Source: an uncultured Neisseriaceae bacterium
GTDB lineage: Bacteria; Pseudomonadota; Gammaproteobacteria; Burkholderiales; UBA11063
Direction of reading: 5' to 3'
Length of the DNA: 10,423 nucleotides
NCBI GenBank assembly: GCA_903891375.1
Contig: CAITEL010000170.1
Coordinates: forward strand, 1-10,423
Shown one piece after another: positions 243 through 5,206 of this stretch. Numbering within the stretch: the first letter of the stretch is position 1; every line of letters starts with the position of its first letter. A program made the translations under genes and the position numbers. The notes under the pieces are model-generated. The model saw nothing but the letters and a program-made list of their open reading frames with translations. It was not told the DNA's origin and did not search any database.

Positions 243-1154
243 TTATTTTTGAACCTTCTCTTTTTTAGTGGTCGCTTTTGTAGTAGTTGCCTTTACCCTT
301 ACCTTTACTAGCTTTTCTATTTTACTCGTCACTTCTGATTTTGAATCTTGGGGCTTCTTTACCATTAAGGGTTTAGATGCCACCTCTTTTTTAATTGTGA
401 CTTTTGGTTTTGGCTTTAATTTTTTCTCAATAAGTTCAACCGCAGAATCTAACTCAATGCCGAAAATAGCAGACAAGTCATCATCGGCAACTTGATTTGC
501 TTTATTTTCATTATTAAGAAGAGCATTAGCATCCCCCATAGAACCTATTAAGTCAAGGTGATCAACTTGACGCAAAGTAAATAACAGTTCTGGTTGCTTA
601 TCCAGTAGGGCACCAACTCCATACAATGTAGCAGCTACATGCTTACACATATCAGCCCAATCAGGGCAAGAGCAAGTAAGTTTGATTTCTTGTGGGTGCG
701 GAAATAAACCATGTGTCGGTTGAGTTATAATACCCATAACTGATTTAGAAAATTTACCTTGCAGTAGCTCTATTAGTGATTCAATTTGCCCTGTGCAAGT
801 CTCCACTAAAGTTTTCCATTTTGTAGAGACCATAGGCTCTATTACAATATCAATCTCATATAATTCTGACCCACTAACTAACGCTTTCACCCTACCTTGT
901 GTAATTTGCAAATCAACTACTGAGCCATTTCTTACGTATGTACGCCCTCGTGGTAAACGATTTGCATAATCACTGTATAATTCAAGGTTATTACACCATG
1001 CCTCACCCCAAAATGTACGGGCTATTTTTCTCCCCTCAATCACAATTGGATTAGCTTTCTGGCCATTATTTAGTCTTTTCTTAACTTCCTTTTCTGCATT
1101 AGCACGACGAACCGCAACAGGCACATACTTAGGCCAGCTATCGTAATAACTCAT
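243..1154 (-). CDS. SWIM zinc-finger protein with lysine-rich C-terminal tail, partner of the SNF2 ATPase
   Basis: 303 residues. The SWIM finger is visible as C161-x-C163-x6-C170-x-H172 (TCSCPDWADMCKHVAATLYG), the CxCxnCxH zinc-binding pattern of SWI2/SNF2 and MuDR proteins. The N-terminal half (FWGEAWCNNLELYSDYANRL, then RGRTYVRNG) is the conserved part of bacterial SWIM proteins encoded beside SNF2 helicases. Residues about 243 to 303 form a low-complexity tail with roughly one lysine in three, plus Ala, Thr and Val, resembling histone H1-like tails and probably binding nucleic acid without a fixed fold. The start is supported by GGAG eight bases before the ATG. It follows the SNF2 gene after 27 bases, so co-transcription and a shared complex are likely. 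The biochemical role of this protein type is not established; DNA binding or targeting of the ATPase is inference. Confidence 0.88.
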   Translation of the reverse strand: MSYYDSWPKYVPVAVRRANAEKEVKKRLNNGQKANPIVIEGRKIARTFWGEAWCNNLELYSDYANRLPRGRTYVRNGSVVDLQITQGRVKALVSGSELYEIDIVIEPMVSTKWKTLVETCTGQIESLIELLQGKFSKSVMGIITQPTHGLFPHPQEIKLTCSCPDWADMCKHVAATLYGVGALLDKQPELLFTLRQVDHLDLIGSMGDANALLNNENKANQVADDDLSAIFGIELDSAVELIEKKLKPKPKVTIKKEVASKPLMVKKPQDSKSEVTSKIEKLVKVRVKATTTKATTKKEKVQK

Positions 1155-1181
1155 ATTATTTTCTCCAACATATCATATTTT

Positions 1182-3926
1182 TTAATTATCACTCAACACT
1201 TTATGGATATCTAGTGATATTATATCCATAAGTTGATCATTATTCAACTCAGTAAACGACATTTCATTACCAACTTGTAATACATCCTGTGATAATTCTT
1301 TCTTACTACTAATTAAACTATCAATTTTTTCTTCAATCGTACCACGACAAATAAATTTGTGCACTACCACTAAATGTTTTTGTCCAATACGATAAGCCCG
1401 ATCTGTAGCTTGGTTTTCAACCGCAGGATTCCACCAACGATCAAAATGAATAACGTGTGAAGCTCGAGTAAGCGTCAATCCCGTACCACCCGCTTTAAGC
1501 GACAACACAAAAAATGGTGGGCCTTGTTCTTCTTGAAACTCTGCAACTAAGCCTGCACGTTGTTTTATAGCAGTAGAGCCATGTAAACTAAGGCCTCTAC
1601 ATCCAAAAATTTGTTCCAGAAAAGTAACTAATGCTGGTATAATCTCCGTAAACTGCGTAAAAACTAAAACTTTTTCTTGTTTCGCTGCAATCTCTTCACA
1701 TAGTTCTTTTAAGCGTAAAAACTTACCACTATGTTCAGCATGATAATCTCCATAACCAAGCCATTGCGCAGGATGATTACAAATTTGTTTAAAGCGCAGT
1801 AAAAAAGACAACACTAACCCACGGCGCTTCACTCCGTCCACAACCTCTAATTGATTTTTTAATTCTCGCACTGATAGTTCATATAGTTTAATTTGCTCTT
1901 TACTCAAACCACAAAAAGTTTGAATTTCAGTCTTATCGGGTAAATCAACAATAATTTTTTTATCACTTTTTAACCGTCGTAATATATACGGTTGAGTTAA
2001 ACTCCTAATACTTGTCAAGAATTGTTTATACCGCTCATGACTCTTTTCTTTAATCGCATTTTTTTCATAAGTAGTAAATGCCGAGCTACTACCTAATAAT
2101 CCTGGTGAAGTAAAATCAAATAACGACCATAAGTCACTCAAGCGATTTTCAATTGGAGTACCTGTTAACGTAAATCTAATATAACTGGTTAATTTTTTTA
2201 TTGCTCGTGTTTGTTTAGTGGCCGCATTTTTAATTAATTGTGCTTCATCTAGTACAATTACATGCCAATCAATCGTACTCAACCATTCTAAACGATTAAC
2301 AAATGCATAAGTGGTAATTATTAAATCACATTGAGGTAAATTTTCTTTATTTGAATGCATTATTATATCACGAGATGTTGTAGAGCTATGCATAACAAAA
2401 TATGTAAGACTTGGTGCAAAACGCATTAACTCTGATTGCCAATTACCTAATAATGAAGCTGGAACAATTAATAAATTATATTTTGGTTTTGCTTGTTTAA
2501 CTTGATGTTTCACCAATAAAAAAAATGCTATAACTTGAATTGTTTTACCTAAGCCCATATCATCAGCTAAACATGCTCCTAATTTCAATTTATATAAAAA
2601 CCATAACCAATTAACTCCAGCTAACTGGTATGGGCGTAATATGGCTTGCAAGTGTTGATTAAGTATTGTTGCCAGCGATTTTTCATTTGACATTGATGGG
2701 TCACGCAACTGATTTAATATAGTGTTTAACCAATCACCAGCTACAACACTAGACCACTCTATTGCTGACTCAATATGTTTATTTTCTTTAGAATTTAAAA
2801 TATCTTCCCCTGCCCCAGATAGTAAACGTAAACACTCCGCCAGTGACATTCCATCTTTGGTTGCATTTTTAATATCGTTCCAATGTGATAGCATAGTGTT
2901 TAAATGTTCTTTATTAACCTCTACCCATTGACCTTTAACTTTAACTAAACCATCATTCGAATTCATTAATTCTTGCCACTCTTGTTGTGACAATATTTCT
3001 CCATTACTAAGACTTAGTTGAATATTAAAATCTAATAAACTGTCCAAACCCATAACTGAAACAGGTGCATTACCTATTGTAACATTTACTTTTGAACGTA
3101 ATGGATTTTTTGCATTCCACCAATTAGGAACTCGTACTACAATTCCACTTTGTTCCATTTCTGGAACCGCTGTTAGAAATTGATGAGCCTCATGGATACT
3201 CCATGTTAAAGCTTGAAAAACCTCCCCATTATCCACAAGTTTTTTTATTAACGGAATGATTTCAGCAGCTTTTTGCACTGGCACCAATAAAGCCAGTAAT
3301 GCCGCATGATTTTTTTCACCTGCGTAATCCTGTAATGCTCGTTTTAAAGGTAAATGTTGCGTTGCTGCTTTTTGACCAAGTTTAGTTGTATATGTTGCCA
3401 TAAATGCAAATGGACGCTCATTGTTGTTTTTATTTTCAGCCAAATGAAAGCACACCCGACCAACAGAGTTCCAATTAGAATTATAGCTCTGAAAATAATC
3501 AGGTATTGATCCAGAAAAATTTTTTAATTCATTTTGTAATGTTGTATATAAATCTTGCCAAATTTTATAAAGATTGTCTGCATTTAAATATTCAAAACCA
3601 TGAATAAATGGCGCTTGACTAATTACCTGAAGCAATTCATTCTCAGTTGGTGGAGTGACTTCTGGTAATACTTTTAATGTTGATACCTCTGGGTATCTAC
3701 ATATTTGCGTGATAACTATTCTAACAAATGACTGCCAAAATATACACTCAGGAGATAATTGACTAAACTCTTGTATTCCTAGATGAAGTAGGCCAAAGAT
3801 TGGAGATTGTGCAAATAGTTGCACAATCTTTTGTTCTGTGGTATTTAACTCTATATTATTTAATTGATTTTGTTGTAAAAGATAAACATGCCCTTGCGGA
3901 GAGAGTGCTAGAGATAAATTATTCAT
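1182..3926 (-). CDS. SNF2-family DEAD/DEAH-like ATPase (HepA/Rad54 type) with bacterial SNF2-associated N-terminal domain
   Basis: 914 residues. The two RecA-like lobes occupy about residues 428 to 880. Visible motifs are Walker A DDMGLGKT (455-462), Walker B DEAQ (560-563), TGTPIEN (588-594), the second-lobe SLKAGGTGLTLT (809-820) and motif VI QATDRAYRIGQ (839-849). Residues about 1 to 425 match the bacterial SNF2-associated region; the part near 295-340 (LLDFNIQLSL to VKVKGQWVEV) is typical of the DUF3670 type. Such proteins translocate on double-stranded DNA and remodel bound proteins rather than unwind strands. All core motifs are intact, so it should be active. AGG lies eight bases before the ATG. 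It is the first gene of a pair with the SWIM protein downstream. Its start lies only 38 bases from the end of a MITE-like element. DNA repair, transcription recycling and defence are all possible; nothing here decides between them. Confidence 0.95.
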   Translation of the reverse strand: MNNLSLALSPQGHVYLLQQNQLNNIELNTTEQKIVQLFAQSPIFGLLHLGIQEFSQLSPECIFWQSFVRIVITQICRYPEVSTLKVLPEVTPPTENELLQVISQAPFIHGFEYLNADNLYKIWQDLYTTLQNELKNFSGSIPDYFQSYNSNWNSVGRVCFHLAENKNNNERPFAFMATYTTKLGQKAATQHLPLKRALQDYAGEKNHAALLALLVPVQKAAEIIPLIKKLVDNGEVFQALTWSIHEAHQFLTAVPEMEQSGIVVRVPNWWNAKNPLRSKVNVTIGNAPVSVMGLDSLLDFNIQLSLSNGEILSQQEWQELMNSNDGLVKVKGQWVEVNKEHLNTMLSHWNDIKNATKDGMSLAECLRLLSGAGEDILNSKENKHIESAIEWSSVVAGDWLNTILNQLRDPSMSNEKSLATILNQHLQAILRPYQLAGVNWLWFLYKLKLGACLADDMGLGKTIQVIAFFLLVKHQVKQAKPKYNLLIVPASLLGNWQSELMRFAPSLTYFVMHSSTTSRDIIMHSNKENLPQCDLIITTYAFVNRLEWLSTIDWHVIVLDEAQLIKNAATKQTRAIKKLTSYIRFTLTGTPIENRLSDLWSLFDFTSPGLLGSSSAFTTYEKNAIKEKSHERYKQFLTSIRSLTQPYILRRLKSDKKIIVDLPDKTEIQTFCGLSKEQIKLYELSVRELKNQLEVVDGVKRRGLVLSFLLRFKQICNHPAQWLGYGDYHAEHSGKFLRLKELCEEIAAKQEKVLVFTQFTEIIPALVTFLEQIFGCRGLSLHGSTAIKQRAGLVAEFQEEQGPPFFVLSLKAGGTGLTLTRASHVIHFDRWWNPAVENQATDRAYRIGQKHLVVVHKFICRGTIEEKIDSLISSKKELSQDVLQVGNEMSFTELNNDQLMDIISLDIHKVLSDN

Positions 3927-3964: not shown

Positions 3965-4069
3965 AGTGTAATAAAATCCGCTTACAGCTTGTTGATGGTT
4001 TTTCGATAAGTAACTCACTACAAATTATTCACGCTACAACCAAGTTAAATAAGCGTATTTTATTACACT
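3965..4069 (+). mobile_element. MITE-like palindromic element, copy 1
   Basis: A 105-base non-coding element bounded by inverted ends. The left end reads AGTGTAATAAAATCCGCTTA, and the right end on the other strand reads AGTGTAATAAAATACGCTTA, one mismatch in 20. The arms stay loosely complementary further in (CTTGTTGATGG against CTTGGTTGTAG), so the whole unit can fold as an imperfect hairpin. It is 101/105 identical, without gaps, to the reverse complement of copy 2 at 5102-5206. No convincing target-site duplication flanks it. Size, terminal repeats and near-identical copies point to a miniature inverted-repeat transposable element moved by a transposase encoded elsewhere; I could not assign an IS family. 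It lies between the antitoxin stop and the SNF2 start, where its hairpin could end antitoxin transcription or alter the SNF2 promoter. The 92 bases between it and the antitoxin stop show nothing recognisable. Confidence 0.85.
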
Positions 4070-4161
4070 TCCTTGAACGTATGATACAATAAACAAAAGT
4101 TGTAAAACCCTGTAGTGATATTGTAAACTACTCTGACTTATAGAGGCCGAATTAATTCACG

Positions 4162-4500
4162 TTAAACAAGTCCGACCACACTGGAATTCTTTACTTTTTT
4201 TCTGGATTTTGGTGTGATTTTAAACTCAATGCTACACCCTATTGCATGAACATATTTTTCAATCGTTGATAATTTTGGTACAGTATTATTTTGAGCCGAT
4301 TCAAATCTGCTTAATGCAGTTTTTGATGTTCCCATTTTTGTTGCAACATCTACTAATGTCATGTGTTGTTCCTTACGAATTTTTTTTAATTGCTCTATAA
4401 TTTCAAATTGTAGTTTGAAATTTTCATATTCAACAACAAATTCTGGATTTTTGAATGCTTCAACACGCATTTCATCATGCCATTTACCATTATCTTTCAT
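4162..4500 (-). CDS. HigA-type antitoxin, XRE/Cro helix-turn-helix
   Basis: 112 residues. A lambda-repressor-like helix-turn-helix lies at about residues 36 to 88; the core (MTLVDVATKMGTSKTALSRF, 47-66) is the canonical XRE fold in which the second helix reads DNA. The N-terminal 35 residues, ahead of the HTH, are probably involved in toxin contact or dimerisation. The C-terminus is basic (SRKKVKNS). In HigBA-type modules the toxin gene comes first, as here, and the antitoxin both neutralises the toxin and represses the shared promoter. Its ATG overlaps the toxin stop by four bases (ATGA), so the two are translationally coupled, and AGGAG lies eight bases upstream inside the toxin gene. The likely operator is the TGTTAACA palindrome in the promoter. 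The pair sits between two inverted MITE-like copies, which suggests acquisition as an accessory block. Confidence 0.87.
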   Translation of the reverse strand: MKDNGKWHDEMRVEAFKNPEFVVEYENFKLQFEIIEQLKKIRKEQHMTLVDVATKMGTSKTALSRFESAQNNTVPKLSTIEKYVHAIGCSIEFKITPKSRKKVKNSSVVGLV

Positions 4501-4823
4501 TTTAGAATCTCCTTTTGCCGTTCACGAGCTATTTTTAGTTCTTTAAGAGGCGTTTTTTGTGTTTTTTTAATAAAGCTATGTAAAATCCAGATTTCATGAC
4601 CAACATTAACACAGTAAAACACACGGGCAATACCTTCAAGTGCCTTAACTCTTATTTCAAATAAACCACCACCCATTGATGATGTATGCGGTTCGCCTAT
4701 ATCTGGTCCATCTAACACCATCCTATCTACAAGTACAAAATACCTCGCAAATAGCTTTTTAGGTAAGGACTTTATCTCATCTCTAACTGATTCATTAAAG
4801 TATTTTATTTTCCATCTATTCAT
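4497..4823 (-). CDS. HigB/RelE-superfamily toxin (phage Gp49-like), probable ribosome-dependent mRNA interferase
   Basis: 108 residues. It opens WKIKYFNESVRDEIKSLPKK, as in Gp49-like/HigB toxins. It carries the family's basic strand positions in LFEIRVKALEGIARVFY (R58, R67) and the hallmark LHSFIKKTQKTP (81-92) followed by an ELKIARERQ helix. RelE/HigB toxins of this fold bind the ribosomal A site and cleave mRNA during translation, halting growth; for this protein that is inferred from the family. Length is normal and no key segment is missing, so it appears intact. The only start consistent with the family is the ATG at 4823. It has no Shine-Dalgarno sequence and lies directly behind the predicted -10 box, so the transcript may be leaderless. 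The antitoxin follows with a four-base overlap. Confidence 0.88.
   Translation of the reverse strand: MNRWKIKYFNESVRDEIKSLPKKLFARYFVLVDRMVLDGPDIGEPHTSSMGGGLFEIRVKALEGIARVFYCVNVGHEIWILHSFIKKTQKTPLKELKIARERQKEILK
4509..4513 (-). promoter_or_regulatory. Antitoxin ribosome binding site inside the toxin gene
   Basis: AGGAG on the minus strand, eight bases before the antitoxin ATG and within the last codons of the toxin. It contrasts with the toxin start, which has none. This could give the antitoxin higher translation than the toxin from the same message. Confidence 0.75.
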
Positions 4824-4830
4824 AGTACAA

Positions 4831-4860
4831 ATGTTAACACAAACGATAACTTATTGTCAA
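4831..4860 (-). promoter_or_regulatory. Toxin-antitoxin promoter with palindromic operator candidate
   Basis: On the minus strand a consensus -35 TTGACA (4860-4855) is followed after 18 bases by TAACAT (4836-4831), or after 17 bases by TTAACA, as the -10. The -10 is a poorer match than the -35. The perfect palindrome TGTTAACA (4832-4839) overlaps the -10, a natural position for HigA-type autorepression. The predicted transcription start falls at about 4823-4826, at or just before the toxin ATG. Confidence 0.6.
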
Positions 4861-4873
4861 GTTTTTTTCAGCT

Positions 4874-5034
4874 TCAATAATGCATTAATGCATTTTTCTT
4901 AGCATTTTCATCTGAATATTTTTTCATAGCTAATTGATTCATTTTCAAATATAAAGATTTTGGCTCTCCTCCTGAGAAACTAAATCATAGTAGTCTCTGG
5001 CACAATTGTTTTCACTAATATATACCCAAGGCAT
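4874..5034 (-). pseudogene. Possible small frameshifted gene remnant, about 53 codons, unknown family
   Basis: From an ATG at 5034 one frame reads MPWVYISENNCARDYYDL then VSQEESQ before a stop at 4945. A second frame joins at that point and reads SLYLKMNQLAMKKYSDENA then KKNALMHY, stopping at 4874. Restoring one A in the AAAA run near 4960 merges both into one open protein of 53 residues of plausible composition. I do not recognise the family. A different frame over 4980-5078 gives MYQEKVLKGLNKKAKCLGYI, vaguely like the C-terminal tail of some transposases; only one of the two overlapping readings can be the true ancestor. No good ribosome binding site precedes the ATG. The remnant lies between MITE copy 2 and the toxin promoter, so it may be debris from the event that brought in the toxin-antitoxin pair. 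It could also be chance in AT-rich DNA. Confidence 0.3.
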
Positions 5035-5101
5035 TTTGCCTTTTTATTTAGACCCTTAAGTACCTTTTCTTGATACATTTTGTCATAATAATTTAGACGG
5101 A

Positions 5102-5206
5102 AGTGTAATAAAATACGCTTATTTAACTTGGTTGTAGCGTGAATCATTTGTGGTGAGTTACTTATCGAAAAACCATAAACAAGCTGTAAGCAGATTTTAT
5201 TACACT
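5102..5206 (-). mobile_element. MITE-like palindromic element, copy 2 (inverted relative to copy 1)
   Basis: 105 bases, reverse-complement match to copy 1 with four substitutions (in this copy at 5145, 5152, 5177 and 5192) and no gaps. The ends are AGTGTAATAAAATACGCTTA and, on the other strand, AGTGTAATAAAATCTGCTTA. Short flanks on either side do not match each other, so no target duplication is seen. It begins 28 bases after the stop of the M48 protease gene, where its hairpin could serve as the 3' end of the dapA-bamC-M48 transcript. Confidence 0.85.

Follow-up and report, generated by a model that had tools for sequence, protein, structure and literature searches.

Correia elements (CREE) and other bacterial MITEs are AT-rich sequences of about 100 bp that lie between genes, carry TIRs and fold into a hairpin. 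In Acinetobacter, small accessory dif modules, some of them with toxin-antitoxin pairs, lie between recombination sites, the pdif sites, which are XerC/XerD sites of about 28 bp. MITEs are usually multicopy and often have short flanking direct repeats, commonly of the sequence TA (PMC4133298). The TIMEs are larger: they measure 209-262 bp, have Tn3-type ends of 38 bp and usually come with direct repeats of 5-6 bp (PMC4133298, PMC13367494). Two such Tn3-derived miniature elements enclosing cargo make up a TIME-COMP, a class that includes the integron mobilization unit and whose sizes begin just above 1 kb (PMC13367494). Past transposition of such composites is inferred where direct repeats lie beyond the outermost ends, and composites without direct repeats are also listed (PMC13367494); according to a review, direct repeats fade with age (PMC10969869).

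The window, that is, the whole stretch of DNA analysed here, is an entire contig of 10,423 bp from a draft genome of 2.08 Mb (422 contigs, 94.3% complete, 3.3% contamination). It contains a 1,242-bp block in which two inverted copies of a short element bracket a toxin-antitoxin pair and the end of a transposase gene. The features are as follows.

Left flank: SNF2 helicase gene, its start codon 38 bp from the outer end of the left copy
3965..4072, plus strand: left copy of the hairpin (MITE-like) element, from inverted-repeat search, folding and direct comparison
4050..4072, minus strand: TIR "B" end of the left copy, GGAAGTGTAATAAAATACGCTTA
4162..4500, minus strand: HTH (HigA-like) antitoxin gene, 112 aa; HTH_3 at E 1.8e-10; phrog_1373
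4497..4823, minus strand: Gp49/HigB-type toxin gene, 108 aa, intact; PF05973; aligned with three relatives
4831..4860, minus strand: promoter-like site upstream of the toxin gene, TTGACA, 18 nt, TAACAT; a consensus match only
4980..5098, minus strand: 3' remnant of an IS110-family transposase gene, with matches in the genus and on plasmids
5099..5206, minus strand: right copy of the hairpin element, inverted relative to the left copy, 104/108 identical
5099..5121, plus strand: TIR "B" end of the right copy, at its inner border and adjoining the transposase tail
Right flank: M48 peptidase (bepA-like) gene, its stop codon 28 bp from the outer end of the right copy

The peptidase gene is labelled bepA-like because its top NCBIfam match is BepA, under the model cut-off. 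On the other side, the SNF2 helicase adjoins a SWIM-domain protein (window 243-3926); the top PADLOC profiles for this pair are ZorD and DpdE, and the top NCBIfam match, again under cut-off, is the SCO1167/SCO6262 family helicase. The GC content of the toxin-antitoxin genes, 32% against 33-36% in four genes on the bepA side, is uninformative as to foreign origin.

With the TIME-COMP units, the block shares short transposase-less elements enclosing cargo, here in inverted orientation, as well as a size just above the lower end of their range. The elements differ from those of TIME-COMP in their length of 108 bp and their ends of about 23 bp, and the block lacks the direct repeats that mark transposition of such units. 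In length, AT-richness, TIRs, hairpin fold and intergenic position, they are like CREE and bacterial MITEs; yet MITEs are usually multicopy, whereas here the full copies are two in number and a clear duplication is lacking. The block also recalls the dif modules, except that its borders are 108-bp hairpins. The available parts of PMC4133298, PMC13367494, PMC10969869 and PMC11187229 describe neither the element nor a MITE composite that carries a toxin-antitoxin pair, which is not proof of absence.

The first-pass annotation had described two opposed 105-base elements, identical at 101 of 105 positions and enclosing about 1.03 kb. The inverted pair is real; the inverted-repeat search lengthens each copy to 108 bp, and direct comparison sets the identity at 104/108, with mismatches at element positions 15, 30, 55 and 62. 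The arms, of 108 nt each, are 96% complementary and 1,026 nt apart, in agreement with the enclosed length first given. A chance origin of this pair is excluded, since the remaining inverted pairs, among the 25 of 37 that were listed, reach at most 28 nt at 71-92%. Each arm contains a TIR of its own, of 24 nt at 92% in one and 23 nt at 87% in the other. The element is thus short, lacks a transposase gene and bears TIRs at its ends, which is the size (<500 bp) and structure expected of a MITE. RNA folding of both strands of both arms gives a single long stem that pairs the ends, with energies of -29.0 to -34.0 kcal/mol and z scores of -3.5 to -6.9 (200 shuffles each); the shuffles folding equally well numbered 0, 0, 0 and 1 of 200 for the four combinations. 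Rfam returned no match at the gathering threshold, and two matches of the hairpins to plant microRNA precursors, far under that threshold (E 0.049 and 0.72), were set aside as hairpin resemblance. The consensus scan listed no minus-strand promoter inside the left repeat that would drive the SNF2 gene.

HigBA type II modules combine a PF05973 toxin with an HTH_3 antitoxin, and the enclosed genes, which we take to be of the HigB/HigA type, show the same toxin-first order, the same gene overlap (4 nt here) and a full-length toxin domain: the toxin aligns over the full 90 positions of PF05973 Gp49 (E 3e-26). The intact HigB/HigA-type pair reported at first reading is upheld, in that a full-length PF05973 toxin and an HTH_3 antitoxin are present. 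In NCBIfam, the toxin has no match and the antitoxin has sub-cut-off matches only, and neither was matched in a PDB sequence search at 0.001. Promoter-like sites in the region number 7, against 9.4 expected from shuffles. Compared with HigBA modules elsewhere, the genes look ordinary, and the difference lies in the flanking repeats only.

The small ORF already recognised as decayed (4980-5147, minus strand) begins within the right repeat, and the rest of it now proves to be the tail of an IS110-family transposase, whose similarity starts at most about 4 codons from the inner border of that repeat. The 40-residue tail aligns with the C-terminus of a protein of another genome of the genus, G013 (E 0.0028, 40% over 30 aa), a full-length transposase carrying DEDD_Tnp_IS110 and Transposase_20, and with a tail remnant at the start of a contig of G022 (50% over 26 aa). 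On plasmids, 101 records match the tail at E up to 1, each weakly (E 0.01-1); among the matches listed, 22 of 30 are annotated as IS110 family transposase, and in both of the records inspected it is the 3' end of the coding sequence that matches. Because these weak single matches agree in family and position, the tail is assigned to IS110, even though Pfam returned nothing for the decayed ORF or the tail even at E 10. Further matches, in G011 and G007 (which contain a stop) and in G006 (in a gene unrelated by eye), look spurious. The upstream part of the gene is not found outside the right repeat, since only 28 bp separate this repeat from the end of the next gene, and the G013 protein as query had no match in the source genome at E 0.01, in a search run without a positive control. 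A terminator-like hairpin (AAGGCATTTTGCCTT followed by a T-rich stretch, window 5028-5042) lies inside the remnant; terminator-like sites between 3800 and 5400 number 3, against 0.4 expected from shuffles.

The distribution of the repeat was followed with a 23-bp end pattern, allowing up to 3 mismatches, alongside a control pattern. In the source draft, the end occurs at six sites: four are the termini of the two copies, and the other two are solo ends (C112:3714-3736 and C197:262-284), each of the latter with 1 mismatch in 23. The control pattern gave none. The end sequence is therefore dispersed, as the two solo ends occur away from the block. They span about 23-30 bp and have the outer bases ACACGG in common, and no remnant of the element interior was found at either of them; they may represent binding or target sites instead of remnants. 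The end on C112 lies 15 bp past the stop of an ORF, and on C197 a stretch, TTACACGGAAGTGTAA, has perfect 6-bp inverted arms. A 20-bp end pattern gave an additional 3-mismatch match (C349) together with one control match, for which reason matches seen only with 3 mismatches are not trusted. Full copies number two, about 1 kb apart and both at the block, with no third in this 94%-complete, 422-contig draft.

Outside the source genome, the 23-bp end (up to 3 mismatches) was found in 0 of 22 other genomes of the genus and in 0 of 398 other, evenly drawn genomes of the order, where the control pattern matched once; the two sets overlap by 12 genomes. The search for the element recommended in the first-pass annotation thus recovered solo ends at home and nothing in these relatives. 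The exact end pattern had no match in viral contigs, nor did the left element by blastn against plasmids, in scans that may not have included the window's own record. Among genome contigs there was a single exact match; it falls within an ORF on a contig from an uncultured bacterium and was judged to be chance. As no other match was obtained outside the source genome in the collections searched, the element appears to be private to the source species. The full-length IS with the element ends (GGAAGTGTAATAAAAT) that had also been sought was not present in the assembled contigs of the genome; fragmented drafts often lose IS copies.

Traces of movement were sought as exact matches only. Around the left copy, the longest flank match is 3 bp and offset; around the right copy, it is a flush 2-bp AC, expected by chance about 1 time in 16; around the whole block, it is 2 bp and offset. 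Target-site direct repeats of the kind that accompany MITEs are therefore not seen, and neither are direct repeats outside the outermost ends of the kind used for composites. Nor did the suggested search for the block at other loci reveal a second one: it occupies a single place in the source genome and is absent from all 40 relatives.

The reading that best fits these observations, at a probability of roughly 60%, is that of a MITE-like element whose two copies bracket a common toxin-antitoxin pair, all but the tail of an IS110 gene having been lost through movement of the unit or through outward deletion. A single short, non-autonomous MITE-like element would have inserted twice, presumably with the help of a transposase that acts in trans and is not seen in the draft genome. 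One copy would have entered an IS110-family transposase gene beside the HigBA-type pair, and the second would have inserted on the other side of this pair in the opposite orientation. Two events could then account for the loss of the IS110 part beyond the right copy, namely transfer of the bracketed piece as a unit or a deletion extending outwards from that copy; the block would now be static. The 104/108 identity, the TIRs, the hairpin fold, the solo ends and the IS110 tail all speak for this reading. The lack of a clear target duplication, the presence of two full copies only and the lack of an autonomous partner in the contigs count against it, and solo ends devoid of element interior are odd for decayed MITEs.

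A true MITE-bounded composite, whose 1,242 bp entered the gap between bepA and SNF2 as a unit by its outer ends and which may still move if given a transposase, is a less probable account, with clearly under even odds. This was the layout first proposed, and much of it stands: two inverted copies do enclose cargo, consisting of an intact toxin-antitoxin pair and decayed remains, with outer ends on both sides, and composites bounded by MITEs have been proven in other systems (PMC4133298, PMC13367494). The other part of the proposal, movement, left no trace in the searches above, with no flanking direct repeat (2 bp at best, offset), no second block and no partner transposase. Missing direct repeats do not exclude a composite, since some composites lack them (PMC13367494) and they fade with age (PMC10969869). 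One indirect point in favour of mobility is the transposase tail, cut near the inner border of the repeat and with its other part missing outside, a truncation explained equally well by excision from a longer donor or by outward deletion from the right repeat. A further point is that SNF2, at E 1e-100, is found in none of the 22 other genomes of the genus, so the region around the block has changed. The bepA-like gene is present in 17 of these 22, at no more than 62% identity, and the sequence after it varies at the loci with enough sequence. With SNF2 absent at that threshold and the sequence after bepA variable, synteny yielded no usable empty site among these relatives. Since the hallmarks of movement that were tested are not seen, the block is not classed as a MITE-bounded composite.

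An account of similar standing to the composite holds that two independent insertions caught the toxin-antitoxin pair by accident and that a later deletion removed the sequence beyond the right copy. The toxin-antitoxin family is common, and it is present in the genus without this repeat. Toxin matches occur in 9 of 23 genomes of the genus including the source genome (8 of 22 others), several of them partial or interrupted, and in 3,794 plasmid records, with the name RelE/ParE family toxin on every one of the 15 listed. Genome G021 has 74%-identical DNA over window 4188-4860 only, ending inside the repeats, and the end motif is lacking in all 22 other genomes of the genus. Around 8 of 10 other toxin loci, no comparable inverted pair is present (the longest is 41 nt at 71%; the check left out G009:C109 and G011:C25). 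Relatives carrying the pair at this locus without the repeats, together with repeats elsewhere that never flank cargo, had been named beforehand as evidence of independent insertions, and the toxin relatives found without the repeat in the genus are counted against composite mobility, the comparison bearing on the genus rather than on this very locus. Against independent insertions stand the need for an extra deletion ending at most 28 bp from the bepA-like gene and the closeness, at 1 kb, of the only two full copies found in the draft.

Some of these relatives have settings of their own. The source genome has a second, broken copy of the toxin (C122 2444-3045, 63% aa identity, one stop), near a short ORF with a resemblance, by eye, to the beginning of a group II intron reverse transcriptase. 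On G011:C8, a related pair (toxin 1498-1827, antitoxin 1820-2128) lies between exact 53-bp direct repeats (1398-1450 and 2129-2181), the second of which is the 3' end of an adjoining minus-strand ORF, 2129-2551, Fur-like by eye; the arrangement looks like a toxin-antitoxin unit of about 730 bp whose insertion at the end of a gene left an att-like duplication. On G004:C158 (about 1698-2442), a related toxin match ends beside an element of about 745 bp with 28-nt TIRs (86%) that encodes a 227-aa protein, transposase-like by eye; this is probably an IS that lies within the toxin gene or next to it.

A more specific version of movement, in which species-private, non-Tn3 MITEs dependent on a transposase in trans form a minimal addictive cassette of 1.2 kb, protected by the toxin-antitoxin pair that it carries and excised from a longer donor with the cut IS110 gene as its scar, is unlikely. 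More doubtful still is a single insertion that local inverted duplication or template switching turned into a fixed inverted pair, with a segment that homologous recombination may invert: the two full copies, 96% identical, are the only ones and both lie at the block, as such a process would have it, but the sequence immediately outside the 108 bp is not co-duplicated and the solo ends elsewhere indicate dispersal. REP/REPIN-type repeats, 30-bp units that are single or in inverted doublets and are moved by a RAYT transposase, would match the singles and inverted doublets seen here, with 65 bp between ends, but are very improbable given only four sites in the genome and no Y1_Tnp (PF01797) in its draft, the control search being positive in 5 of 14 genomes.

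Altogether, under the favoured reading of a MITE-like element present in two copies around a common toxin-antitoxin pair, the block looks like a small mobile-element relic, and nothing shows movement. As it is, the locus offers a real repeat-bracketed layout that can be read as a transposon without bearing the traces of transposition. Provided that they are active, the toxin-antitoxin genes would form an addiction or defence module of the ordinary kind, by which loss of the block is penalised, and the transposase scar yields a checkable prediction about the donor. Should the block prove mobile, it would rank as a very small mobile unit that carries no intact cargo other than its own addiction module, and it would extend MITE-bounded composites beyond those with Tn3-derived ends.
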